A DNA stretch of 64,000 nt from Affinundibacterium amnicola (GTDB taxonomy: Bacteria > Pseudomonadota > Gammaproteobacteria > Burkholderiales > Burkholderiaceae_D): contig NZ_JACOFU010000002.1 of NCBI RefSeq assembly GCF_014284275.1, positions 356,623-420,622 on the forward strand, given 5' to 3'. Each line of letters opens with the position of its first letter. Within the stretch, counting starts at the first letter, position 1. The translations under genes were made by a program, and so were the position numbers. This document shows, one piece after another, positions 1,605-50,525 of the stretch. The notes under the pieces are model-generated. The model did no database searches. It was not told the origin of the DNA and saw only the letters and a list, made by a program, of their open reading frames with translations.

Positions 1605-4469
1605 CTAATTTGGTTTCATTTGCTCTGGATACATAACGACCTGAATATAATTGTCCATATTCAAGTAGATCTTTGCTGCGTCTTGGACTTCCCTCGTTTG
1701 CAATTGTTTTACTCTGTCATTGAATGTAAATACGTGCATAGGGTTTTCATTATCCTCTTTCATCTCATTGAATATTGCCATCCAAAATTCATTGGTTTTC
1801 ATTTGCTCTTGACGATTTTTCAGCCAATTCTCTTTCACTTTTTTCAGTTCATCCTCGGTCACAGGATTTTTTTTCATGTCTTCAATCAAGGTAAAACTAC
1901 TGCGCAATAATTGGTCCACATGCTCAGGTCCACTAGGTAAGTAAAGCTCGACCATATATCCCTGATAAGGATTTAAGATTGTTCTGTATGAGACTTGCGG
2001 GCTATAGACAGCGCCAAGCTCTTCACGCATTTTCGCGGTCAATCGCAATTGCAATACTTCCATGACCGCAGAAAATCGCATACGATCCGCGATACTCATC
2101 TTACGTTCGCCATGCATCTGCAAAGTCACCAAGCTTTGAGATTCTTTACCGACATACACATTTTTCTTCACGATACCAGGCACAGGTCGCAATCCATGAT
2201 CTTTGATACCGACCTCAACATCGTGTGCAGGTAATCCAGCGAGATAACTCAAGACTAAAGATTTCACTTTTTCAATGTCGAAACTTCCCACCAAAAAGAA
2301 AGTGAAACCTTTTGCACTCGAAAAACGGGCCTGATAAATTGCCATCAAACGATCAAGATCAAGTGCGGCAATATGCTCTGGTGTACTTAACACCGGTAAA
2401 CGCGGATGGGCAGGGTACATTGTGTGTATCAATTGATCTTGAAACACGGCGAAAGGCGATGCCATTTGATTGCGTAAAGCGTCTTGCTGCTTACCAACAA
2501 AGGATTGGAATAATGCAGGATCTCGACGTGGTGCAGTCATTGCAAGATAAATCACTTGCAGCATTGTCTCCAAATCTCTTTTACTTGAGGAGCCAGAAAT
2601 TCCTTCAAAGTTTTCACCAAACTTGGTCGAGACACTGACATTTTTTCCGGCCAAAAACTTCCCTAGCTCCAGTGGTGCTATGTCCTTCATCCCCATCACA
2701 CCAACAATGGTGGTGGCATAACGTGCTTGCAAAAAATCGGTGTCGGCCACCATCGACATGCCGCCCGCCCTACTAGCACCAAGCAAGATTTGATCATTCT
2801 TAAAGTCGCTTGGTTTCATGACGAGCGTGACGGCATTACTGAGCGTCCAAGTTGTCGTACCCAACTTCGAATCTTTAACTTCATTGATAATGCTGCCAGC
2901 TTGCGGTGGTGCATCCATCAATGTGGCGACTGTCTTCTTTTCGGTATAAGCAGTTACCGCTACTTGCTCGGCACGCTTCACCATTTCCATTAATTGTTGA
3001 GAATCAGGAATGGCGTGATCTGGTTTATCATTTCCTTGATAGACGATAAGTTTTGGTTCTTGATTCACTAAAATCGTACGTGCAAATTGATTCACATCAT
3101 CGAGCGAAATTTGTTTCATGATCACTTGGTGAAATGCGTACTCTGCTTCAATTCCTGGTATTGCTTCGCCAACTAAGAAGTTACGTATAAACTCAGATGC
3201 TAATTCTGCAGACTGACTTTTTTCTCGCTCCTTGTATGCATCTTCCATATTGCGCAAAGCATTTGATTTTGCACGTTCAAATTCAGCTGCGCTAAAACCA
3301 AACTGCGCCACCCGCTTATTTTCTTGCATCAAAGCCTCAATCGCTGTTTGAACTCCCGCTTTGCCAATTGCGGCAAGAGAATTAAATTCTTGGTATTGCG
3401 CCACCAAATTTTTTACACCACTACTTGCGCCAAGAAAAGGTGGTTGCGGTAGCTGCGCCAATTCACGTAAGCGATTACTCAACATCACATTAAAGAAACT
3501 TTGAATACGACGTTCGCGATAGCTGCCAAACTTTCCGTCATTTTTATTGAGATAACGGCCTTGTGAAATACTGACAGTGGCGATGTTTGCTTCTTTATCT
3601 ATCGCAACCACCGCGTCATTGATATTTTTTATCGGCACTTGAGAAATTACACGAGTGCGAGGTTTTTGAGGATTTTTTAAAGCAGAAAAATTCTTTTCTA
3701 TCAAACGTTTTGCCTGAGCCAAATCAATATCACCTACCACGACGACGGCCATCAAATCTGGACGATACCAATCACGATAAAATCGTTTTAATGCATCGTA
3801 CTGAAAGTTCTTCAATACATCTTCTTTGCCAATCGGTAGACGTTCGGCATACTTTGAACCATGCAAGATCTTTGGTAGAACTTGTTTATTTAAGCGATCT
3901 TCTGCGCCCTTACCTAAACGTGCTTCTTCAAGAACAATTCCACGTTCTCTGTCGATTTCGGTGTGATCAAATGCTAAGCCATGTGCCCAATCTGCCAACA
4001 CCATGATCGCCTTATCCAGATTTGCCGGTTTATCAGTGGGAATAGGTAGAATGTAAACGGTCTCATCGAAACTGGTATAGGCATTTAAATCAGCACCAAA
4101 CTTCACACCCATCGATTCTAAAAAAGATACCAAGTCATTTTTCTTAAAATGCTTACTGCCATTAAAGGCCATATGTTCAGTGAAATGCGCGAGACCTTGT
4201 TGATCCTCGTCTTCTAAAATTGAACCGGCTTTGATCACCAAGCGCAATTCAGCTTTTTTCTCAGGCTTTGCGTTTTTCTGCAAATAGTAAGTCAGTCCAT
4301 TATTCAACCTCGCTTTAATCAATTGAGAAGAATAAGGAATCGATTTGTGCGCGGCAAAAGGACTATTTGACGATTGCGCCGAGGAGGAAATAGGAAGAAC
4401 AAGCAACAATGCTAAAGAAAAAGCCGACAGTCGTAGCGATCCTAGCAATAGTAGAATAAATGCACGCAT
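1605..4469 (-). CDS. M16 family zinc metallopeptidase (pitrilysin/insulinase type)
   Basis: 954 residues with an N-terminal signal sequence (hydrophobic residues 3-30, SSAQ cleavage site), so likely periplasmic. The inverted zinc motif HxxEH is present as H95-F-T-E98-H99, and a downstream VLEEARLG segment supplies the distal glutamate ligand. Two M16 halves follow one another: the active N-terminal half (about 45-490) and an inactive C-terminal half (about 530-950) that together form the clam-shell chamber. Length fits the large periplasmic M16B/PqqL-like peptidases. Probable role is degradation of peptides in the periplasm; the substrate cannot be told. The gene has its own 130-base upstream gap. 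Confidence 0.9.
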   Translation of the reverse strand: MRAFILLLLGSLRLSAFSLALLLVLPISSSAQSSNSPFAAHKSIPYSSQLIKARLNNGLTYYLQKNAKPEKKAELRLVIKAGSILEDEDQQGLAHFTEHMAFNGSKHFKKNDLVSFLESMGVKFGADLNAYTSFDETVYILPIPTDKPANLDKAIMVLADWAHGLAFDHTEIDRERGIVLEEARLGKGAEDRLNKQVLPKILHGSKYAERLPIGKEDVLKNFQYDALKRFYRDWYRPDLMAVVVVGDIDLAQAKRLIEKNFSALKNPQKPRTRVISQVPIKNINDAVVAIDKEANIATVSISQGRYLNKNDGKFGSYRERRIQSFFNVMLSNRLRELAQLPQPPFLGASSGVKNLVAQYQEFNSLAAIGKAGVQTAIEALMQENKRVAQFGFSAAEFERAKSNALRNMEDAYKEREKSQSAELASEFIRNFLVGEAIPGIEAEYAFHQVIMKQISLDDVNQFARTILVNQEPKLIVYQGNDKPDHAIPDSQQLMEMVKRAEQVAVTAYTEKKTVATLMDAPPQAGSIINEVKDSKLGTTTWTLSNAVTLVMKPSDFKNDQILLGASRAGGMSMVADTDFLQARYATTIVGVMGMKDIAPLELGKFLAGKNVSVSTKFGENFEGISGSSSKRDLETMLQVIYLAMTAPRRDPALFQSFVGKQQDALRNQMASPFAVFQDQLIHTMYPAHPRLPVLSTPEHIAALDLDRLMAIYQARFSSAKGFTFFLVGSFDIEKVKSLVLSYLAGLPAHDVEVGIKDHGLRPVPGIVKKNVYVGKESQSLVTLQMHGERKMSIADRMRFSAVMEVLQLRLTAKMREELGAVYSPQVSYRTILNPYQGYMVELYLPSGPEHVDQLLRSSFTLIEDMKKNPVTEDELKKVKENWLKNRQEQMKTNEFWMAIFNEMKEDNENPMHVFTFNDRVKQLQTREVQDAAKIYLNMDNYIQVVMYPEQMKPN

Positions 4470-4601
4470 AAATTAAGCACCAAAGACAGTATGAGCTGGC
4501 AACTTACTCTAAATTTACAAGAAAAACAATTCAATCATTCTTCGACAGCTAGAGGGATACCGGCCTTATTCAGACACTGATAACTTGTGCGTCAACTTAC
4601 G

Positions 4602-5078
4602 TCAACTTTTGCGTTCGCTAAATGAGTAGCATAGTAGGACAGCTGATAACACCGAGAAAGTCCAGTAATCCGTAGGCAATCCCCACCACCAATGCTTATG
4701 CCAGAAGACATCGACTGGATTAAATCGGACTAAACCGAACGCAGAGTTAAGCACAAACCAGAGAAAATCTTCCACTATCCAAAAAACCATAATGCATGCA
4801 AACGCACGCGCTTGCAGTTTCCATGACCAAATTTGTAGAAAGAAAAATGGCAAATGAAAGATCATCGCGACAAATGGAAATACCCAAGCGTGATAACCGG
4901 TCATCGCTCGCCCGCCCCAAAAAATATCTAGCAACCAATGCTGCTCTATACGCCAAGTCGGTAAACTGGTCGCCCATCCAGCGCCACCTTCAATCTGAAT
5001 TTCTACCTCGGCGAAAAAAAAGGCCATCAAACTGACCCAGAATAAAGTGAGCAACAATCCCTTCCACTGTATGCGCAT
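4602..5078 (-). CDS. Four-helix hypothetical membrane protein
   Basis: About 158 residues with four hydrophobic spans and many Trp and Phe. I chose the ATG at 5078 because TCCTT (5086-5090), i.e. AAGGA on the coding strand, lies seven bases before it; an earlier in-frame start at 5138 would add 20 residues. It begins 62 bases after the stop of the glycosyltransferase at 5141 and is transcribed in the same direction, so the two probably form an operon. I do not recognise the family. Given its neighbour, a part in membrane-lipid handling is possible but is only a guess. Confidence 0.7.
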   Translation of the reverse strand: MRIQWKGLLLTLFWVSLMAFFFAEVEIQIEGGAGWATSLPTWRIEQHWLLDIFWGGRAMTGYHAWVFPFVAMIFHLPFFFLQIWSWKLQARAFACIMVFWIVEDFLWFVLNSAFGLVRFNPVDVFWHKHWWWGLPTDYWTFSVLSAVLLCYSFSERKS

Positions 5079-5140
5079 AAGAATGTCCTTCAATAATTTT
5101 CTTTGGATTGATAAGTTAGGGAATGTAGGTGACTTCATAT

Positions 5141-6310
5141 TTAGATCAAGCTACTGAGTACATGTTCAAACACAGTTTTTGCGGCGTTTGGTTTACCAAG
5201 CGATTTCGCTCGTGCCGCCATATTCGAGAGTTTGTCTGGTTGTGCAATGAGCTCTTGCACGCGATACGCAAGTGCGAGTGCATCGACGGCTTTGAGTGCA
5301 ACGCCCTGCTCCATCACAAAATCCGCGTTGCGTTCTTCTTGTCCAGGTATCGGCGCATTGACGATCATCGGCAATCCCATTGCCAAACACTCTGAAGTGG
5401 TGAGTCCACCAGGTTTGGTAACGACCAAATCAGCACAAGCCATCAATCGTTCAACCTGGGAAGTAAATCCAAAAGGAAAAAGTCGTTTTGGATAAAATTG
5501 TGCGAGGCTTTGTAAAGCCTGCAAGCTCTTCAAGTTTTTCCCGGCTAGTACCACCAATTGGCATTGAGAGCAGGTATTCTCCAAGTCTATGCGTAACTCC
5601 AACAAGCGCGCTGCAAGCTCATCTAAGTTACCAAGGCCAGCACCACCGCCCATCAAGAGAATGGTTAACCGAGATGGATCTAAACCAAATTCTTGCGCAC
5701 ATACGGCTCTTGACAAGGTCTGTGCGAATGCAGGCATGATAGGAATTCCTGTCACATGAATGGCATTGGCCGCAATCCCATGTGCTCGCAAACGAAATGC
5801 AACCTCCTGATTCGCGGCAAAGTAACCAGCAATTCCCGCATGTACCCACATGCGATGCAAATCAAAATCGGTTACTTGTACCCAAACTGGACAATGCAAC
5901 TCTCGCCTTGCGATCAATCTTGCCAGCATTTCTGCCGGTAAAAAATGGGTGCAAATAATGGCATCAGGATGTAAGTTGGCAATCTCACGCAATAAGGCTT
6001 TTGCATTCCAGCGTTCCAAACTACGCCTTAGTTTTTCCATCGAGCTATCGGATCTGGCATCGTTGGAATAGTTATACAAATAGCCCCACAAGGTCGGTGC
6101 ACGATTGACCAAGCGCATATAAAAATCGGTATAAATCTTACGAAAGCCAGTCGTAACGTAATCCATCACATCGAGATGAATCACCCTACAACTTGGATCA
6201 GCTAATTCAGCATAGGCGCGTATTGCTTCAGCAGCGCGCGCATGTCCGGCACCGGCAGAGACACTGAGTAATAGAATTGTTTTCTCAGATTTTTTTGCGT
6301 TTTCTGTCAT
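5141..6310 (-). CDS. MGDG-synthase/MurG-like glycosyltransferase
   Basis: 389 residues, no signal peptide, GT-B fold. The N-terminal domain opens with the glycine-rich loop SVSAGAGHARAAEAIRAY typical of monogalactosyldiacylglycerol synthases (acceptor-binding domain about 12-180). The C-terminal nucleotide-sugar domain contains LLMGGGAGLGN (about 218-228) and the family signature KPGGLTTSECLAMGLP (about 307-322). Relatives add glucose or galactose from a UDP-sugar to diacylglycerol at the cytoplasmic face of the inner membrane. The sugar and acceptor cannot be read from the sequence. It is not MurG, since it carries the longer MGDG-type N-terminus and is outside any division cluster. A small membrane protein follows it. 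Confidence 0.85.
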   Translation of the reverse strand: MTENAKKSEKTILLLSVSAGAGHARAAEAIRAYAELADPSCRVIHLDVMDYVTTGFRKIYTDFYMRLVNRAPTLWGYLYNYSNDARSDSSMEKLRRSLERWNAKALLREIANLHPDAIICTHFLPAEMLARLIARRELHCPVWVQVTDFDLHRMWVHAGIAGYFAANQEVAFRLRAHGIAANAIHVTGIPIMPAFAQTLSRAVCAQEFGLDPSRLTILLMGGGAGLGNLDELAARLLELRIDLENTCSQCQLVVLAGKNLKSLQALQSLAQFYPKRLFPFGFTSQVERLMACADLVVTKPGGLTTSECLAMGLPMIVNAPIPGQEERNADFVMEQGVALKAVDALALAYRVQELIAQPDKLSNMAARAKSLGKPNAAKTVFEHVLSSLI

Positions 6311-15866: not shown

Positions 15867-16289
15867 TCAGAACGGCTTCACCACCACCAAAATCACGGCA
15901 GCAATCATCATCAACACGGGCACTTCATTAAACACGCGAAACCACTTGTGACTACGTTTGTTTTGACCATGTTCAAACTTCTTCAAAATGCTTCCGCAAG
16001 CGTGATGGTAGCCGACCAGCAAAATGACTATCGCCAGTTTTGCATGCATCCAGCCATTGCCGGGACCTTTTCCTATGCCGTAGCCCAGCCACAACCAAAT
16101 TCCTAAGACTAATGCCGGAATCATCAGTATCGTCATGAATCGGTATAACTTGCGCCCCATTAGCAATAGACGCTCTACACTGGGTTGATGCGTTTCCATC
16201 GCCAAATTCACGAAGATGCGCGGCAAATAAAATAAGCCTGCAAACCAAGAGGCGATAAAAACGATGTGAAATGCTTTAACGTATAACAT
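15867..16289 (-). CDS. hemJ: Protoporphyrinogen IX oxidase, HemJ type
   Basis: 140 residues, four membrane helices. The opening LYVKAFHIVFIASWFAGLFYLPRIFV carries the conserved His and Arg of HemJ; later the RLLLMGRKLYRFM segment and the Lys/His-containing WMHAKLAIV and GYHHA segments follow. HemJ oxidises protoporphyrinogen to protoporphyrin in the inner membrane in bacteria lacking HemG/HemY. The start lies two bases after the stop of the DUF4276-like gene, so it is translated from the same message as proA and the inserted pair. Its ribosome site would overlap the last codons of that gene. Confidence 0.9.
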   Translation of the reverse strand: MLYVKAFHIVFIASWFAGLFYLPRIFVNLAMETHQPSVERLLLMGRKLYRFMTILMIPALVLGIWLWLGYGIGKGPGNGWMHAKLAIVILLVGYHHACGSILKKFEHGQNKRSHKWFRVFNEVPVLMMIAAVILVVVKPF

Positions 16290-16291
16290 AA

Positions 16292-16900
16292 TTAAATCTT
16301 CTTAAAAACTTCAACAAACCGACTTTCAAATCTATCGAATGATTCAAGTCCACGCAAATTTGAAAAATTCTCAGTCAATTCAGATACACGAATTCGATGT
16401 CGATTCGGATTGAATTTTTCAAGCGCTCTTCCAGATTTTTCTGTTGCCTTCGTCATCGCCTCAAAAAGAACTCGTTTTGGATCCGGTAATTTTTCCCACT
16501 CTTTTTTTGCTGGTAAGCTCAAATTGATCTTTCCATTCCTATTCCCAACAGCCTCACGTATCGCCTTTTCATCCGACAACAACCAGGCTTCACTCATTCG
16601 AATTGGAATCACAGGAATAACATTACTCAAAGATTCAGTCGCATCATTAATCTCTTTTAGACGTACATTCATCGGTTCTTTCTCTGAGTCACGATGAATA
16701 AATAGAACATCGGAAGGAAATAAATTTAAAGATACTCTGACTCTCGTGTCTAAATCAAAACCAATTTCACCTAAATTTCTTGCAAATTGATGTTCGTAAT
16801 TGATATGAGGGTAATGCACACCAATCAACCAATTGATAATCGGTATCAAGCATGTGTCTGAACTTCCATCGGTAAGTAATGTATAACGAAGAATATTCAT
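16292..16900 (-). CDS. DUF4276/TOPRIM-like protein, partner of the AAA ATPase
   Basis: 202 residues, no membrane segment. The start has the LLTDGSSD pattern, comparable to the first TOPRIM motif (usually VEGxTE, here Asp in place of Glu). The second acidic strand is DVLFIHRDSE (DxD-like), and the SEAWLLSDEKAI motif is the most typical DUF4276 signature. The C-terminal third is basic. TOPRIM proteins of this kind are metal-dependent nucleases or effectors linked to SMC-like ATPases. It starts one base after the ATPase stop, indicating coupled translation. Family call is by eye; nuclease activity is inferred only. Confidence 0.7.
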   Translation of the reverse strand: MNILRYTLLTDGSSDTCLIPIINWLIGVHYPHINYEHQFARNLGEIGFDLDTRVRVSLNLFPSDVLFIHRDSEKEPMNVRLKEINDATESLSNVIPVIPIRMSEAWLLSDEKAIREAVGNRNGKINLSLPAKKEWEKLPDPKRVLFEAMTKATEKSGRALEKFNPNRHRIRVSELTENFSNLRGLESFDRFESRFVEVFKKI

Positions 16901-16901
16901 C

Positions 16902-18287
16902 TTATTTACTCAACAAGTCCATTTGATGCTTGTACATTTGGGACAAACCAGGCTTACCATGTGCGCTTTCAACCATCGAGTTGTCAGTTTGCAAGTAGTC
17001 AACGAGCGTTCCAATTGCAACAGTCGAATTACCGCTTTTACACCGCCAAGTGTTTTCAATAGGTCTAAAAACTGAAAGTGATGCACCATCCCGTTTATAT
17101 GATTGGGACACAACAATATCTTCCGCAGCAATATGCTGAACCACAAGAGGAGAATGCGTATTGATGATAATTTGACGTAACGGATTATCATCTCCAACGG
17201 CATATTTGGGATCCACTGCCATCTGATAAAGCAAGGTCACGATAGCTTGTATTCGTGCTGGATGTATTCCATTTTCTGGTTCCTCTAAACAAATTAAACC
17301 ACCCGATTCGTCGTCCGCCGCAATAATCGCGAGCGCTAAAAATCTTAAAGTCCCATCAGATAGCGCACGTGCCTCATGCTTAATATGGTTAATAGTTTCC
17401 AAATACAGTGTCTTAAGTTGACGCTTTTCATCTACATCCACGAAAACATTCTTCACTTCAGGCAAAAGATTGGCCAATTGATTTGCAATTTCTTGATTCT
17501 TTCCAAGGCGATCTAATGTTGCAGGCAAATGTTCACCATGCTCTGAAACTGTGCTTTTGGATAAAAAATCATCCGGACGTCTTAAAGAACTTGACTCCAA
17601 CTGCAATAAAGTCCATGACTGCATTTCACGTCTCGCAGCAAGTGCCGTCGGACGATCAATCGTATTGATATTACTTAAAATCGTTCTATCTGCTTTCGAA
17701 ATTGGAATACTTATGGGTGCTCCACTTGTCTGATCCTGACGAATTTTAACGACATTCGACTCTTTCTCTGTATAAATAAAGTCAATTTTGCTACTACCAA
17801 CATAGGCAGAATCAAAAAATTCTTTGTCCACAAAAAAACCTAGTTCTTCTTTGGCAGATCCTTTTTGAATGAAATTCAACGACTCGTGAACAAGTTCAAT
17901 TCCTTCTGGGCTACTAGCGGTTGATCTAACATATTTAAAAGCTAATCTATACTGCAAATAGGTCACTTTGGGTTTTGCGTCTCGACTAAAATCGTCAGTC
18001 ACGCTATTACCAACTAACATATCAACTTCAAATTCCATAACACTGGCTTGCGACGAAACAGTCTGAGTAAAGAGAGAAGCGATACTTGTTCGTTGCTTTC
18101 CACTATTGCGAATACTATTTGCAGCTTCAATAATTGGTGTATTTGATAAATTTTTTAGGAAAAGTATTGCGTCAAATAAATTCGACTTACCAACACCATT
18201 TGCACCTGCAATGCACGTGAACGGGCCAAAACGAACTTCTACGTCTTCGAGACTTTTAAAACCTTTAACACGTAATCTTGTTAGCAT
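16902..18287 (-). CDS. SMC/RecF-like AAA ATPase (COG4637/AAA_21 type), putative defence ATPase
   Basis: 461 residues, cytoplasmic. Begins MLTRLRVKGFKSLEDVEVRFGPF and has Walker A GANGVGKSN at about residues 29-37, a long middle insertion (about 60-280), an ABC-like signature ALSDGTLRFLALA, Walker B GLICLEEPENGIHP and the switch histidine in INTHSPLVV. This is the layout of overcoming-lysogenization (OLD)-like and PARIS AriA-like ATPases, but with no fused TOPRIM; that domain is supplied by the next gene. GAGG lies seven bases before the start, eleven bases after the proA stop. Lower GC than its neighbours is suggested by eye, in keeping with transfer. Confidence 0.85.
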   Translation of the reverse strand: MLTRLRVKGFKSLEDVEVRFGPFTCIAGANGVGKSNLFDAILFLKNLSNTPIIEAANSIRNSGKQRTSIASLFTQTVSSQASVMEFEVDMLVGNSVTDDFSRDAKPKVTYLQYRLAFKYVRSTASSPEGIELVHESLNFIQKGSAKEELGFFVDKEFFDSAYVGSSKIDFIYTEKESNVVKIRQDQTSGAPISIPISKADRTILSNINTIDRPTALAARREMQSWTLLQLESSSLRRPDDFLSKSTVSEHGEHLPATLDRLGKNQEIANQLANLLPEVKNVFVDVDEKRQLKTLYLETINHIKHEARALSDGTLRFLALAIIAADDESGGLICLEEPENGIHPARIQAIVTLLYQMAVDPKYAVGDDNPLRQIIINTHSPLVVQHIAAEDIVVSQSYKRDGASLSVFRPIENTWRCKSGNSTVAIGTLVDYLQTDNSMVESAHGKPGLSQMYKHQMDLLSK

Positions 18288-18298
18288 AAATTCCTCAG

Positions 18299-19585
18299 CT
18301 ATTTTCGAACTTCGCCATGACCGAACACCACATACTTCAGTGAAGTCAAACCCTCCAACCCAACCGGTCCACGTGCGTGCAGTTTATCATTAGAAATGCC
18401 AATCTCCGCACCGAGGCCGTATTCGAAGCCATCGGCAAAGCGGGTTGAAGCGTTGACCATGACCGATGCTGAATCGACTTCGCGCAAAAATGCCATGGCG
18501 CGGCTGTAGTCTTCGGTGATGATAGATTCTGTATGTTTTGAGGAATAATGATTGATATGCTCTATCGCTGCAGTCATGTCCGCAACCACTTTTATCGACA
18601 AAATCGGCGCTAGGTATTCGGTAGACCAATCTGTCTCTTGCGCAGTTGCTAAATGCGGATATGCGTGCAAGATTTGTGCGGCTTGCGTATCACAACGTAA
18701 TTCGACTTTTTCACTCAAATAACGTTCTGCGAGTTTAGGTAAGACTTGCGCCGCGATGCCTTCTGCTACCAGTAAAGTTTCCATGGTATTGCAAGTACCG
18801 TAGCGATGGCATTTGGCATTGAATCCTATATCGACAGCTTTTTGCATATCCGCTTTATCATCAATGTAGACGTGGCAAATGCCATCTAGATGTTTGATCA
18901 TCGGTACTGTCGCCTCACGCATCAAGCGTTCAATCAAACCCTTGCCACCGCGCGGCACGATCACATCGACGTATTCGGGCATGGTAATCAAAGCACCGAC
19001 GGCTGCACGATCTGTCGTATCTACCACCTGTACCGCTTGCTCAGGTAAACCGGCTGTGCGTAAACCCTCTTTAACCAAATCGGCTAAGGCACGATTGCAA
19101 TTAATCGCCTCAGAACCACCACGCAAGATGGTTGCATTACCGCTCTTGATGCACAATCCCGCCGCATCGACTGTCACGTTCGGACGTGCTTCATAGATGA
19201 TACCAATCACACCAAGCGGTACGCGCATTTGCCCCACTTGTATACCGGATGGACGATATTTCATGTTTGAAATTTCACCGATAGGATCAGATAAGCGTGC
19301 GATTTGTTCTAAGCCTTCTGCCATCGTGGCGATCGCTTTATCGCTGAGCGCCAAACGATCTAACATCGCCGCTTCCATACCCGCAGCTTTGGCGGCAGCT
19401 AAGTCTAATTCATTCGCTGCACGCAGAGCTGGTGCTTCACGACGTATCGCTGTTGCTATTGCTAGCAAGGCTTGATTCTTAGTCGCTGTGTCTGCTTTCG
19501 CCATGGTGCGCGATGCTAGACGCGCTTGCTGACCTAGGATTTGGATGTAGTTGGCGATGTCGCCGGTGTTTTTATCAACGCTCAT
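18299..19585 (-). CDS. proA: Gamma-glutamyl phosphate reductase
   Basis: 428 residues, close to family length. Second step of proline synthesis: NADPH-dependent reduction of gamma-glutamyl phosphate to glutamate semialdehyde. The aldehyde-dehydrogenase-like fold is shown by [21 protein letters not shown], the LRGGSEA loop and the catalytic cysteine in [13 protein letters not shown]. The conserved C-terminal [15 protein letters not shown] is intact, so the inserted pair downstream has not cut the gene. No proB nearby. Lies in the leuS-lptE-holA-proA run. Confidence 0.95.
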
Positions 19586-43707: not shown

Positions 43708-46700
43708 TTAAGAAACTACTTCAGCCTGTTTATTGACAAATCCACTAATCGCAGCAAGTAAATCATCTTCACGATATGGCTTACCGAAGTACTCATTAAC
43801 ACCAAGTTCAGCAGCATAGTTACGGTGTTTATCCGCAGTACGCGAAGTAATCATGATGATAGGAATGTGGTGAGTTCTTGAATCACTACGCACGTTACGG
43901 GTCAAATCGAAACCATCCATACGCGGCATTTCAATATCTACCAACATCACGTCGGGTGTAATCGATTGCAATTGTTCCAGCGCATCAATACCATCTTTTG
44001 CCAATACCACCTGATAACCCTCACGCACCAACAAACGTTGCGTTACACGACGCACTGTCAGGGAATCGTCAACCACCATCACAATATGATGCGAACGCAG
44101 ACCTTGAACTGGTTCAACTTGAGCTGGCACGGTTTGCTTCTCAACCATTTCAGCAACAGCACCCATTTCTGGAGAGCCGCTATCGATATGCGATTCTGGT
44201 AACTTAGCACGTTCATGCTCAATCTTCTGCGCCAGTGGGACTGGATTCAGAATCAAAACGATATTGCCAGAACCGAGCACCGTCGCACCAGCGATACCAA
44301 TCATACGTGCCAATTGTGGTCCAACGTTTTTAACAACCACCTCACGATTACCAATAATTTGATCGACGTGAATTGCTACACGTTCGTTATCGCTCTTCAT
44401 AATCAAAATCGGCGTGTACTGTTGCGTGTCTGGCGTTGCATCACGTTCACCCAGCATACTTGGTAAATAGTGCAAAGCAACGCGATTGCCTTGCCACATA
44501 ATGGCGCCATCATTGTACGCAGTTGCCAATGCTGCTGATTTCAATTGCTGTACTTGTTCAACTAGGACGGAAGGCACGGCAAAAGTTTTACCGCCTGCAT
44601 TCAAAATAACGACTTGCGTCACCGCCAATGTCAAAGGCAAATGAATTGTAAAATGCGCGCCTTTTCCTTCAACGGTGCTGACCGATACGCGACCACCCAA
44701 AGACGATGCTTCTGAACGAACCACGTCCATACCGACACCACGTCCGGCTAATTCAGTAACCACGTTTGCAGTCGAGAAGCCAGGTTCAAAAATCAAATTA
44801 ACGACGTCAGATTCATTCACAAAACTATCGTCCGTTAACAACCCCACGTTCTTCGCTTTTTCGCGGATGCGATCAAGGTTCAAACCCTGTCCGTCATCAG
44901 TGAAATGAATAACGACTTCGTTACCTTCTTGGCGAATCTCAATCAATAATTCACCAACTTCATTTTTGCCACGCGCAACACGATCATGACGCGCTTCGAT
45001 ACCGTGCACAATCGCATTCCTTAGCATGTGCTCAAATGGACCCACCATTTTTTCCAAAACGCTACGGTCAATTTCTACAGAAGTACCGCGAATATCTAAG
45101 TTGACCCGCTTATCCATTTCCTTCGCGGTCTGACGTGCAATACGATACAGACGTTCAGAAACGCTGGAGAAAGGAATCATGCGTACCCGCATTAAATCTT
45201 GCTGCAATTCACGCGTTAACCGTGCTTGTGCATTCAAGTCAATCGTTGCACCTTCGATTGTACGGTTCAAGGCTGTCTGTACGGTTGCGACGTCGCTTAC
45301 GCTCTCGGCCATCATCCGTGTCAATTCTTGCAAACGAGTGAAGCGATCAAACTCCAAAGGATCAAATTCGCGATCGCCCGAAAATGCCATGCGCGAGGTG
45401 ATCTGCGTTTCCGCTTGAATTTCGACTTCACGTAACTGGTCACGCAAACGACTGACGTTTTCAGTTAATTCTGATAAGGACGCCTTTAAAGTATCTACCT
45501 CATTCTCTAATTTAGAACGGGAAATAGAAACTTCACCAGCTTGATTGACTAAACGATCCAAGATGTCGGCACGCACACGCACTAAAGGAACAGGAGCGGC
45601 ATTGGTTGGTGCGACGACTTGAGGTGCTGCCTGTCTCAAAGCACGTGACACAATTGCTGGCTTCACCAAATTGGCTGACGCATCTGCAACTGGCTGCACC
45701 AAAGCTGATGATGTCACCGGTGCAGGAACAAGGCTTGCTGCTAAAGCATTCTGACCAAGTTCTGCCCCTGCGAGTTGATCTGTGATTGGCGATGAAGATT
45801 CAGTAGCAGGTATCGCTGGTTGCTGTAAGGCTTCCTCAAACTGATTCATTTCTTCAGTTGCGGACAACTCGCTCAAATCTGCGTCAGGAGCAACCTGCAT
45901 CGCCAACTCAGGATTTTGCAAACGCTCAAACAAGTGCATTGCATAATCGTGGCGAGACAGCAAATCTTCCAAAAGTGGCTGACGAATCGTACTACCGGTG
46001 TGCATCAAGTTTTCGATACGGGTTTCCATATCATGCGTATGCTGGCCAAGCTGCATAGCACCTGCCATCCTCGCACTACCTTTTACCGTATGCATCAGAC
46101 GCAAAATGGATTGTGGGATTGCGCCATCTTCAGGACTTTGCTGCCATGAACGTAACAATTGACCGATCATCGGCAATAAATCATTACCTTCTTCCAAAAA
46201 GACAGGAAGTAAATCATGATCGATTTCATCGCTGATCTTAAGTTCAATTTCTGAACTAGAACGATCAATGACACTTTCTTGTTCACGTTCTTGCACAGCC
46301 GCTATTTCAGCTGGTTGCTCAGTTTTTTCTTCAAACAACATTGATTCAGCAACTGGGGACGCGAACACTGGCTCTTCAACAGCAGGGGCAATTTCCGCAA
46401 CACTATCAAGCACAAGAGCATCCGTCTGATCCACATCCGGCACTAACGCAGAAACAGTCACATCGTGTTCTGGCGCGTTGACATTCAATGCCGCTGCGGT
46501 TTCATGCTCAGCTGTTTCCGCAGCGAGTTCTTCCGCTGCCGCTTCTATCGTCACCAATTCAGATTGAGCTTCAGATCCGACATCGTGCGCCAAATCCGAA
46601 ACTTCTACTTTGCCTTCTGCATCTTGTTCAGAATCGCTAAATTCAACATCGGCAACTTGTGTTGTCGGAACAGTTAATGTTTCCGCAATATCGGAGAGCT

Positions 46701-49700
46701 CAGGAATAGTGTCTTCGACGGATAAGTTAATTTCCAACGCATCTACAGTAGGCTCTGAATCGAGTGTGGCAGCATCAACAGAAAAATCTTCTACTTGGGA
46801 ATCGAGTAAAACTGGATCTAATCGCTCGTTCGTCGAGGTAATGAACTCGCCATCATCACCAACATTTGAGCGTGCAATCACATTTTCCAATAGTTGCGCT
46901 AATTGCAGATTTTCGTGCTGAACACGTTCGGCCATCTCTGATAAAGCAAATTTCTGCAACATCGACTTGACGCAATTAACCGTATGATCCAATAAATCAA
47001 ATTCAGATTCTTCAAGATTGACTGGATGCCGTTCTAAGCGCTGCAATACGTTTTCTAAGCTATGCGCCAGTTCTTGTGCCGCGTACAGACCGACAGTTGC
47101 AGAACTACCGGCTAAAGAATGTGCCGCATGAACTGCGTGACGCGATACAGGACGCCTTGGTTCATGTCGCCATTCAGAAAAATCTTGCGCCAAGAAACGC
47201 ACGATCTCGTCGGTTTCCGCCATATAAATCGTGTGCAGTGGCAAACTAATCTCAATATCGCCAATACGTTTTGTATTATCGGTATCCTTCGCTACTGGCA
47301 TCGAGAAATCAGGGAACTCAATGATCTTTGCTGTTTGCTGAACCTCAATAATTGGCTCTACAGCTAATTGTGCGGTAAGCTCTTCAGCCGTCTCAATTTC
47401 GGCATTGATGTCGAGATCATTAACTTCAGTCGAGTAAGACGCTTGCATGCCAACTTCTGGAACCAAATCAGGATTGATTTTTTGTTCAAAATACTCGATT
47501 GGCGGCTCATCCAATTCCTGTACTTCAAATTCAGAATCAAGCAAATGCGCATCATCGACATCAGCAACTAGTTCAGTAACTGCGTCAGTAACTGCGTCAG
47601 ACTTGTTGATCAATAAGTCTTCACCAAGATCATCGGCGGAGATGAATACTTCAGCGTCCTCATCTTTAGCAATCGTCAGAGTTTCTCCAACCAACTCAAG
47701 AGAAGGTGAATCTAGCTCGAACGCTGGAACATTTAGCGTTAATTCTTCATTAGCTTCCGTCTCAACAGGCAACAACGGAACCGCAGTTATTTCGTTCGCT
47801 TCTTCGGTCGTTTCTTCGGTTAGATCTTCGATTGGATCTTCTACGCGAATCACGTCAGTAATAGCATCTGCACTTACTCGATGTTCAGTTGTTTCCGCGA
47901 TCGCTGGCGCTGATAAGGCTGGCTCATCAATTCCGAATTCCAGACCATCTTTCACGCGCAAAGCGGCCGCTATAATCGCATCGGAATTTCTGCTTGAGCT
48001 ACCTTTACTTTTCAGCTCTTCAACCCAGTTAAACATTTCATCAGTCGCATATTCCAGCAATTGATAAAGCGCCTCAGTACCGGCACGGGACTCAGACAGC
48101 CACAAGTTCATCACTTGCTCAATATTCCAAGCACCTTCACCGAACACCATCAAGCCAACCATACGTCCACTACCTTTTAAGGTATGGAAAGAGCGGCGCA
48201 AGCGAATCAGGTATTCTTGGTTACTCGTATCATGTCTGGACAGAGGGATATTCTCACGCACAGCACCAAGCACTTCATCTGCTTCCATCAAGAATATTTC
48301 TAGAAGCTCGGCATCAATTTCCGCTTCAGTTTCTGGCAATTCATGACTTAATTGGATGTCTGGCGCAGCTTCGACATGAGAAGTAGCTGCAACGATTTCA
48401 TCAAGTGCCGCAGCCTGCGTCAAATCTGCATGCGCCAGTAAATCAATCGCTGTTTTTGCTCGTGCACTGGCATCGCTATCGTCCAGCAAAGCTGCATAAG
48501 AGCGCTCATGATCCAATGAATCTTTTAACTTCGCTTGCAGATCTGAGTCTTCGGGCGCATCCACTAAGGATGCCAGTAAACGTTCTGATTCTTTTTGTTG
48601 GTCAATTAAATCCTGCTCTGCAGTTGCCTGAACTATTACAGGATTCGCTTCTAACTGAATCGAAGGCAATAGTTCTTTCTCTGGTGCTTTTTCTAATAAT
48701 TTAGACTGAAATGATCCCGTTGTTGGATCATAGGTAAAGCGCTTCTTCGCCAATTCTGGCTGATTCTGCAAAGTCTCAATAAAGAACGAAAGCGCGCCAA
48801 CGTTTTGCGCCACTTTTTGGTGTAAAGCATCCACCTCTGAAGTCGTTAAGTTCTCAACGCCATTAACAAAGGAACTTACAAGTTCACGTGTATGGTTAAC
48901 AGCAGCCAAGGCATCGTCTTGATCCAATATCGCTAACGCCCCACCGAGCTGTGCAAGAACACCATCAACTGGTGCCAAAATCGCGGTATTAGAAACATCA
49001 CGGAAATGCTCGTCTAAAGCTTTCTCTGCATGTTTCAAACTTTGCTGCATTTCGTTGACCAACACACCCATCGTTTGACGCTGCTGCGCCTCACGTGAGA
49101 TCTCACCTATCCATGTGACATGGCCGTCTGGAATTTCGCCACTAACGACGGACAAAAGACGTCCTGATATTTCATCTGCGCGGGCTGAAAAATTAGCGGG
49201 TAAATGCGTAATTTGTTCTAAGGAATTCTCAAGAAATAGCAAGCATGTGGCTAACTCCAAGCCCATTCGTTCTTTGTCTTGAGCGCGAACGGCATGGCTT
49301 GCAATACCATTTAATTCCTTCAGCAATTTGCTTAATGGCGGAGATTGCAAACCTGTTCCTAGGTCTGCAAGTTCTTTCATCTTCTGAAAAAACTTGTCTG
49401 ACAAGGCCATATCTCCATTGGAAATACGTCCCCACAAATTCTTAATATTGACAACCAATTCCTTAGCATTTGCCAGCACCGCAGGCGCAATCAAGCCGTA
49501 TCGTTTTTGATCGTAATCAGCAGGTACGTGGCGATCTAATTGATAAGCTTTGCGAATTTGTGCAACGAATGCAGATGGTTCACGAACTTGTGCAATAAAA
49601 AATAAAGCATCACGCAATAAGCGCTCAGGGATACTGGTGTTTCCCTCGACTAAACGACGGATTTGCAAATTAATGCGTCCCCAGATTTGCTTAATGTGCC

Positions 49701-50433
49701 GTTCATCTCGCGCATCAATCGATGCGGTAGACTCAGCAAATGCGCGCATCACCAACCAAAATGCTTTTGATTGCGATGTTGTTTGTGCTTGTTCAATTTC
49801 TCGAATCAACATACTCATTTGATTCGATGCTTCAAGCTTGGCGTCGAGATTCTTACTCGTTAAAACCGTTAACAATAATTTTTCAAAGCGCAAACGAATC
49901 GCACCATAATTCACATCAGTTGCACCGCCGGAAAGCGTCAACTCTGGGATCTTCTCTTGAACGGATAATGAAGGGAAAAATAAATCTGCTGGATGAATGC
50001 GCTCAGCTCCTTTCAATTCCAGCAAAGCACGATACTCTGGAAACAAGCGCACTGGCTGTTGCGGATTTCCCGCCAACAAATCCTCTAGATAACGTAAAAC
50101 CGCATAAAACGCATCTGTCATATGCTGTACTGCTATCGCAGATACTTCCAACTTACCTGACTGCATGCGTTCAATTAATTCTTCGACAGTCTCGGTAACA
50201 ATTGAAACGCCTTCAACTTCGACAATCTGCAAAGCGCCATGTGCCTGGTGCAAATAGCTTTTAGCTTGCAACAAAGCCGTCGACTGAGCATCAGTCTCTT
50301 GACTAACCGCATCACTCAACAACTTACCCGCACTAGAAAGTGCTTCCCGTAATTCCGTCATGACCCAAGACAAAGGGGCAATATCAAATTGCTCCTGAGT
50401 GGCGTCGAACGTTTTAGAAGAACCAGATGTCAT
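43708..50433 (-). CDS. chpA: Hybrid chemotaxis kinase ChpA/PilL with several HPt domains
   Basis: About 2241 residues from the ATG at 50433; a TTG five codons earlier is less likely. Order: a degenerate HPt/FimL-like N-terminus (to about 600), HPt with HTLKG (about residue 750), HPt with HSLAG (about 1103), HPt with HTVKG (about 1448), long acidic linkers between, a dimerisation helix (about 1600-1660), HATPase with HMLRNAIVHGIEARHDR (about 1804) and GRGVGMDVVR, a CheW domain (about 1930-2070) and a C-terminal receiver with VVDDS and DIEMPRMDG (about 2110-2235). It is the sensor kinase for type IV pilus twitching and surface responses. Signals come from PilJ, outputs go to PilG and PilH. Confidence 0.95.
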   Translation of the reverse strand: MTSGSSKTFDATQEQFDIAPLSWVMTELREALSSAGKLLSDAVSQETDAQSTALLQAKSYLHQAHGALQIVEVEGVSIVTETVEELIERMQSGKLEVSAIAVQHMTDAFYAVLRYLEDLLAGNPQQPVRLFPEYRALLELKGAERIHPADLFFPSLSVQEKIPELTLSGGATDVNYGAIRLRFEKLLLTVLTSKNLDAKLEASNQMSMLIREIEQAQTTSQSKAFWLVMRAFAESTASIDARDERHIKQIWGRINLQIRRLVEGNTSIPERLLRDALFFIAQVREPSAFVAQIRKAYQLDRHVPADYDQKRYGLIAPAVLANAKELVVNIKNLWGRISNGDMALSDKFFQKMKELADLGTGLQSPPLSKLLKELNGIASHAVRAQDKERMGLELATCLLFLENSLEQITHLPANFSARADEISGRLLSVVSGEIPDGHVTWIGEISREAQQRQTMGVLVNEMQQSLKHAEKALDEHFRDVSNTAILAPVDGVLAQLGGALAILDQDDALAAVNHTRELVSSFVNGVENLTTSEVDALHQKVAQNVGALSFFIETLQNQPELAKKRFTYDPTTGSFQSKLLEKAPEKELLPSIQLEANPVIVQATAEQDLIDQQKESERLLASLVDAPEDSDLQAKLKDSLDHERSYAALLDDSDASARAKTAIDLLAHADLTQAAALDEIVAATSHVEAAPDIQLSHELPETEAEIDAELLEIFLMEADEVLGAVRENIPLSRHDTSNQEYLIRLRRSFHTLKGSGRMVGLMVFGEGAWNIEQVMNLWLSESRAGTEALYQLLEYATDEMFNWVEELKSKGSSSRNSDAIIAAALRVKDGLEFGIDEPALSAPAIAETTEHRVSADAITDVIRVEDPIEDLTEETTEEANEITAVPLLPVETEANEELTLNVPAFELDSPSLELVGETLTIAKDEDAEVFISADDLGEDLLINKSDAVTDAVTELVADVDDAHLLDSEFEVQELDEPPIEYFEQKINPDLVPEVGMQASYSTEVNDLDINAEIETAEELTAQLAVEPIIEVQQTAKIIEFPDFSMPVAKDTDNTKRIGDIEISLPLHTIYMAETDEIVRFLAQDFSEWRHEPRRPVSRHAVHAAHSLAGSSATVGLYAAQELAHSLENVLQRLERHPVNLEESEFDLLDHTVNCVKSMLQKFALSEMAERVQHENLQLAQLLENVIARSNVGDDGEFITSTNERLDPVLLDSQVEDFSVDAATLDSEPTVDALEINLSVEDTIPELSDIAETLTVPTTQVADVEFSDSEQDAEGKVEVSDLAHDVGSEAQSELVTIEAAAEELAAETAEHETAAALNVNAPEHDVTVSALVPDVDQTDALVLDSVAEIAPAVEEPVFASPVAESMLFEEKTEQPAEIAAVQEREQESVIDRSSSEIELKISDEIDHDLLPVFLEEGNDLLPMIGQLLRSWQQSPEDGAIPQSILRLMHTVKGSARMAGAMQLGQHTHDMETRIENLMHTGSTIRQPLLEDLLSRHDYAMHLFERLQNPELAMQVAPDADLSELSATEEMNQFEEALQQPAIPATESSSPITDQLAGAELGQNALAASLVPAPVTSSALVQPVADASANLVKPAIVSRALRQAAPQVVAPTNAAPVPLVRVRADILDRLVNQAGEVSISRSKLENEVDTLKASLSELTENVSRLRDQLREVEIQAETQITSRMAFSGDREFDPLEFDRFTRLQELTRMMAESVSDVATVQTALNRTIEGATIDLNAQARLTRELQQDLMRVRMIPFSSVSERLYRIARQTAKEMDKRVNLDIRGTSVEIDRSVLEKMVGPFEHMLRNAIVHGIEARHDRVARGKNEVGELLIEIRQEGNEVVIHFTDDGQGLNLDRIREKAKNVGLLTDDSFVNESDVVNLIFEPGFSTANVVTELAGRGVGMDVVRSEASSLGGRVSVSTVEGKGAHFTIHLPLTLAVTQVVILNAGGKTFAVPSVLVEQVQQLKSAALATAYNDGAIMWQGNRVALHYLPSMLGERDATPDTQQYTPILIMKSDNERVAIHVDQIIGNREVVVKNVGPQLARMIGIAGATVLGSGNIVLILNPVPLAQKIEHERAKLPESHIDSGSPEMGAVAEMVEKQTVPAQVEPVQGLRSHHIVMVVDDSLTVRRVTQRLLVREGYQVVLAKDGIDALEQLQSITPDVMLVDIEMPRMDGFDLTRNVRSDSRTHHIPIIMITSRTADKHRNYAAELGVNEYFGKPYREDDLLAAISGFVNKQAEVVS

Positions 50434-50525
50434 TCTTAAACCCCGCAAACTCTATGGGCGGAAAATCAAATTTTCCGCGTTGCATACATAATCAAGCTAA
50501 CTGATTGCTAGCTTGCAGTCGAAAA

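Follow-up and report, generated by a model that had tools for sequence, protein, structure and literature searches.

Several described systems combine an ABC ATPase with a TOPRIM effector. In the OLD family (class 1, Gabija GajA, and retron-Eco8), the ATPase is joined to a TOPRIM nuclease, and both domains lie in one protein in classes 1 to 3, according to the accessible text of the source (PMC10568477). PARIS has the two parts on separate genes, and its effector, AriB, is described in the available part of the paper as a tRNase (PMC12409363). Among the Hma-embedded candidates (HECs), a class named after its embedding in the Hma locus, several protect against phages, and HEC-04 is a fusion of an ABC ATPase with TOPRIM, as stated in the available excerpts (PMC12988326, PMC12111858). 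HEC-01 combines an ATPase gene with a DUF4276-like gene and appears among the systems annotated in Desulfovibrio piger in the available section of that report (PMC12724379). The literature searched, to the extent that its text was accessible, contained neither a statement on tests of HEC-01 nor the term DUF4276, with the source preprint lying outside the search. That preprint, Payne et al. 2024, is reportedly the source of the HEC candidates in PADLOC-DB 2.0. Here, we analyzed a pair of such genes in a stretch of 64,000 nucleotides from Affinundibacterium amnicola (contig NZ_JACOFU010000002.1, positions 356,623 to 420,622; called the window below). The pair is already catalogued as HEC-01, and its new sides are a reciprocal exchange of catalytic Glu and Asp and its residence in a core operon. 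We lean toward reading it as a two-gene, ATPase-gated TOPRIM nuclease, most likely an antiviral system that works by abortive infection on the PARIS plan.

Both predicted open reading frames (ORFs) were confirmed on the minus strand with 1 base (16901) between them, as the original prediction had it. The ATPase gene (16902 to 18287) encodes 461 amino acids of an OLD/SMC/Rad50-type ABC ATPase, and the small-protein gene (16292 to 16900) encodes 202 amino acids of a divergent, TOPRIM-like DUF4276 protein. The ATPase motifs quoted in that prediction were all found on the minus strand: Walker A (GANGVGKSN, residues 28 to 36, 18180 to 18206), Walker B (GLICLEEPENG, residues 330 to 340, 17268 to 17300), and the switch (INTHSP, residues 375 to 380, 17148 to 17165). 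Also on this strand is LSDGT (residues 309 to 313, 17349 to 17363), which we take to be a signature-like motif of the ABC type. Across the 79 pairs described below, G28, N30, G33, K34, S35, and N36 were present in 78, with 1 gapped; S310, G312, E335, E336, P337, E338, N339, G340, N376, and P380 were present in all and H378 in 78. The prediction named no published function for exactly this pair; that the pair is uncatalogued was not supported. The ATPase scored 311.7 bits against the PADLOC HEC-01A model PDLC04184 (residues 1 to 389 on positions 1 to 397 of the 464-position profile), and the small protein scored 73.2 bits against the HEC-01B model PDLC04210 (E value of 6.2e-21), a match by model score only; HEC-01B models were matched by all 60 of the clade members scanned. 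The pair still differs from HEC-01 in that the small protein matches its best model only from residue 64 on (residues 64 to 199), in that its clade carries D11 and D71-x-E73 with an invariant HRD and sits in housekeeping operons, and in that the window neighbors do not place it within an Hma locus. Profile searches, which had been proposed with the prediction, also matched the ATPase to Pfam AAA_21 (100.8 bits) and AAA_15 (69.7 bits) and to the PADLOC AAA_21/AriA models (97.2 bits), while the small protein reached Pfam DUF4276 (PF14103) over residues 81 to 123 only, with 22.8 bits, below the curated cutoff of 30.2. PF14103 is present in the precomputed annotation of some clade members. The ATPase also resembles MAD3 of the MADS system (Mad3/Mad4), but its 145.6 bits against the NCBIfam model are far under the cutoff of 420, and other MADS genes were not found beside the pair in the window.

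The pairing of the two genes is obligate. A search of one genome per species (84,980 species) yielded 350 relatives of the small protein, and 80 loci were kept. The ATPase gene lay directly upstream of the small gene in 78 of these, at gaps of −8 to +27 bases, and the two remaining loci are cut off by contig ends, 276 and 252 bases from their start. The 78 paired loci and the window make up the 79 pairs, across which the identities of the ATPase and the small protein are correlated (r = 0.81). Homologues of the pair are spread over many phyla, and this, together with the adjacency, argues that the pair did not arise by chance. Remote DUF4276 proteins of the order likewise had an adjacent ATPase (19/20 loci), and thus the ATPase-DUF4276 pair is a general unit. 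Between the window and L003 (which contains locus L002), two Undibacterium-like copies, the small proteins are 57% identical and the ATPases 83%; the small protein evolves far faster, the opposite of what is expected of a fast-evolving sensor.

The small protein has three conserved blocks on the minus strand: TOPRIM motif 1 (TDGSSD, residues 10 to 15, 16856 to 16873), TOPRIM motif 2 (HRDSE, residues 69 to 73, 16682 to 16696), and RMSEAW (residues 101 to 106, 16583 to 16600) with E104. The residues H69, R70, D71, M102, E104, W106, R80, K142, S14, and D15 are invariant in the 79 pairs. The window protein departs from the canonical TOPRIM Glu of motif 1 and DxD of motif 2 by having D11 and D71-x-E73, a reciprocal change that keeps the acidity. 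Position 11 was D in 76 pairs and E in 3, position 73 was E in 76 and D in 3, and the two were fully coupled: D11 always occurred with E73 and E11 always with D73, and no mixed pair was found. The exceptions were L004 (Oxalobacteraceae-like) and L026 and L057 (both Chloroflexi). A larger set of 296 small proteins, which overlaps the 79 pairs (the window, 217 database proteins, and 78 loci), contained 291 D11/E73 and 3 E11/D73 proteins, one with N71, and one, P0316, with D11 and K73. P0316 is metagenomic and is the single break of the coupling found; this protein may have lost its activity, or its sequence may contain an error. The deeper relatives L121 and L152 were E11/D73, which brings the E/DxD state to five distinct members or close relatives (with L004, L026, and L057), and the still deeper L153 carried E11 but lacked an acidic residue at 73. 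A FastTree phylogeny of the ATPases (83 rows, with L154 a duplicate of L004) required three switches of state without L153 and four with L153 counted as E/D.

As a rule for all DUF4276 proteins, the coupling was rejected: among 26 remote members, E at position 11, D71, and the E104 equivalent were each kept in all 26, while position 73 was D in 13, Y in 8, E in 2, V in 2, and C in 1. Thus, the alignment register is secure, and the coupling is limited to the HRD clade and its neighbors. These alignments are most simply read as one metal site shared by residues 11 and 73, which would have to supply one Glu and one Asp between them. The original prediction had pointed to the Asp in place of the first-motif Glu, correctly for the window protein, and had taken it for a variant of this copy; judged by the aligned proteins, it is a compensated trait of the clade and not a quirk of the window copy.

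The predicted fold of the ATPase is of the SMC/Rad50/PtuA head type, and its N-terminal region matched the Thermus scotoductus OLD protein (E value of 8.7e-11). For the small protein, the order of elements fits the TOPRIM β1-α1-β2-α2-β3-α3-β4 arrangement, with weak supporting structural scores; in a Foldseek search, also with weak scores, AriB was both the top-ranked solved structure and the longest structural alignment, and the OLD TOPRIM domain came at rank 2. These matches support the predicted kind of the pair, an SMC-like ATPase with a TOPRIM-like small protein near PARIS and OLD. The likeness to AriB is one of structure only. With a chain of 306 residues, AriB exceeds the small protein in length, and it comes from a different sequence family, DUF4435; no DUF4435 or AriB match for the small protein appeared in the Pfam or PADLOC scans, and neither the protein nor its profile matched the sequences of solved chains above chance. 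Against a viral fold library the best rows were weak, with an RloB-like phage protein at rank 6. E26 of AriB (PMC12409363) would correspond to an Asp in the window protein. OLD classes 1 to 3 differ from the window pair in having both domains in one protein rather than on separate genes, and the pair has no helicase or reverse transcriptase neighbor in the window.

On the PARIS plan, the SMC/Rad50-like ATPase would dimerize or oligomerize on ATP and keep the small protein inactive. A cue from infection would free or activate the small protein, which could then cut nucleic acid (tRNA, other RNA, or DNA) and halt the cell or the phage, with D11, D71, E73, and E104 as its putative two-metal TOPRIM center. 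The gating, trigger, substrate, and defense role are all what we infer for the pair. A possible but clearly less probable alternative keeps the same architecture and makes the small protein a DNA nuclease that acts directly on invading DNA, in OLD/Gabija-like restriction or in plasmid exclusion, and not an abortive RNase. The SMC/Rad50/PtuA heads, whose fold the ATPase shares, handle DNA, and the second rank of the OLD TOPRIM domain and the restriction-modification genes near remote DUF4276 pairs also point this way. However, the longest structural alignment was to AriB, which the available text gives as a tRNase (PMC12409363), and no DNA-binding extension turned up, although no search was aimed at one.

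The pair resides scarlessly in a housekeeping operon. Its window neighbors are proA, holA, hemJ, dsbA, and rlmL, the nearest two on the minus strand. Upstream, an aldehyde dehydrogenase gene (18299 to 19585) with a Pfam Aldedh match, which we take to be proA, ends 11 bases before the ATPase gene, and downstream a UPF0093 gene (15867 to 16289; 152.7 bits), presumably hemJ, starts 2 bases past the small gene. A scan for promoters and terminators gave no excess over shuffled sequences. In 16 of the searched loci (L003 to L016, L028 from Burkholderia guangdongensis, and L033 from Paraburkholderia saeva), hemJ followed right behind the pair, and proA preceded it in 15, with L010 starting at a contig end. 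With the window and L163 added, 18 distinct Oxalobacteraceae/Burkholderia loci had hemJ in every case and proA in 17. Among hemJ loci of relatives, proA adjoined hemJ in 28 of 30 loci of the genus (the best-scoring ones among 42 genomes with hemJ) and in 26 of 26 from the rest of the family (the best-scoring ones among 104 genomes with hemJ). All 54 loci without the pair had proA next to hemJ and were without other cargo, at gaps of 9 to 245 bases, and the proA-hemJ junction was therefore rejected as a defense hot spot. Compared with the nearest empty site (L083, with an identical hemJ protein and flanks about 92% identical), the cassette stands in place of a 22-base spacer, and no repeats or mobility genes were found at its junctions. 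At the proA-hemJ site, the Duganella/Rugamonas loci L009 and L011 hold a divergent allele that is less AT-rich. Elsewhere, the window contains a 2246-amino-acid ORF (43708 to 50448, minus strand).

The pair is patchily distributed. Its small protein was found in 15 of 392 genomes of the family (8/44 genera), 2 of 118 relatives, 2 of 300 genomes of the order (one of them remote), and 3 of 398 of the phylum (two of them remote). In approximately unbiased (AU) tests over 16 loci, which compared two topologies only, the tree of the pair and a core tree (proA, hemJ, holA, lptE, and leuS) rejected each other (p = 2e-51 and 1e-39), so that plain vertical descent of the pair within the order was rejected in both directions. 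The G+C content of the pair was 3 to 22 points below that of its flanks in 15/15 Oxalobacteraceae/Burkholderia loci and was also lower in 48/59 other loci; 6 of the 80 loci were omitted for a short flank or a missing ATPase. The AT-richness and the tree conflict indicate that alleles arrive horizontally at one fixed site. Across five related loci, the flanks were 67 to 94% identical versus 52 to 71% for the ATPase and small genes, with the drop and the recovery at the gene borders, and no clear co-conversion tracts were found in these flanks. Foreign alleles thus appear to have filled the same site more than once, and recombination through the flanking core genes would most simply account for their entry. 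Only 1 of 72,556 plasmid records was a hit, 50,697 phage records gave one weak partial match, and none of 17 candidate stretches was confirmed in viral contigs (no known phage-borne system served as a positive control in these searches). Cargo of prophages or plasmids was rejected on the grounds that these collections are nearly devoid of the pair.

Other lineages have the pair in other operons. In Methylococcales-like genomes it lay between IMPDH and GMP synthase genes (guaB-guaA; L017) or between T2SSE and T2SSF genes of the type IV pilus type (pilB-pilC; L018 and L025); it stood ahead of dapB in L027 and between RNase HII and ThiI genes in L041. A codirectional gene within 150 bases was found upstream in 26/55 loci and downstream in 17/60. 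In the Pseudanabaena locus L022 (8440 to 15527), the pair is directly upstream of pglZ and brxL, with a long ORF bearing an NPPY motif (2373 to 6266) further upstream, and thus this copy is embedded in BREX. At E values of ≤1e-15, the neighbors in 63 clade loci outside Oxalobacteraceae/Burkholderia (191 of 192 selected genes) matched 63 plus 20 PADLOC families, and those in 20 remote DUF4276 loci (70 neighbor genes) matched 184; among the matches listed, hits are sparse for the clade and dense for the remote pairs, a rough contrast because one gene can match dozens of models and the remote set is from one order while the clade set spans phyla.

Taken on kinship, patchiness, and exchange, defense appears to be the best-supported function of the pair. 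What weighs against it is the lack of defense neighbors in its own family. In the window's family and in Burkholderia, the pair had no mobile or defense neighbors and was always in the same core operon, an outcome that the original prediction had named as adverse to its proposal of a candidate antiphage system. That proposal keeps the patchy presence, the horizontal exchange, and the one BREX-embedded relative on its side. Against the fixed operon stand the patchiness, the tree conflict, and the AT-rich DNA, features not expected of a core function. An alternative is an accessory role outside defense, for example in the repair of DNA or RNA or in RNA processing under stress, which a few lineages would have retained beside housekeeping genes. 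The sites at proA-hemJ, guaB-guaA, pilB-pilC, and upstream of dapB, the near absence from mobile elements, and the slow evolution of the ATPase favor such a role, but we consider it unlikely given how few family genomes carry the pair, its exchange and AT-richness, and the relative within BREX.

A bolder proposal, to which we assign little probability, would make the pair an immune cassette of a selfish or self-preserving kind with one private core-operon site per lineage, recombined between species through flanking genes rather than plasmids or phages, whose TOPRIM Glu and Asp were reciprocally swapped several times and whose nuclease, in the boldest form, aids homing. Similarly improbable is a selfish, homing-like cassette whose nuclease cuts the empty proA-hemJ junction so that repair via the flanking core genes copies the pair in: the single private site free of other cargo, the scarless junctions, the divergent alleles at one site with a sharp fall of identity at both ends, and the separate operon sites of other lineages would suit it, but the five compared loci have no clear co-conversion tract in their flanks, remote kin lie near defense genes, one clade member sits in BREX, and we know of no TOPRIM nucleases of this kind that are sequence-specific.

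The coupled Glu/Asp exchange offers a direct handle on the TOPRIM assignment and on how much variation a two-metal center tolerates, and the proA-hemJ sites, 54 without and 18 with the pair, lend themselves to natural paired comparison. If the pair is indeed an immune system, ATPase-TOPRIM immunity would extend beyond defense islands and mobile elements, to an AT-rich, patchy clade housed in core operons, which island-based surveys pass over.
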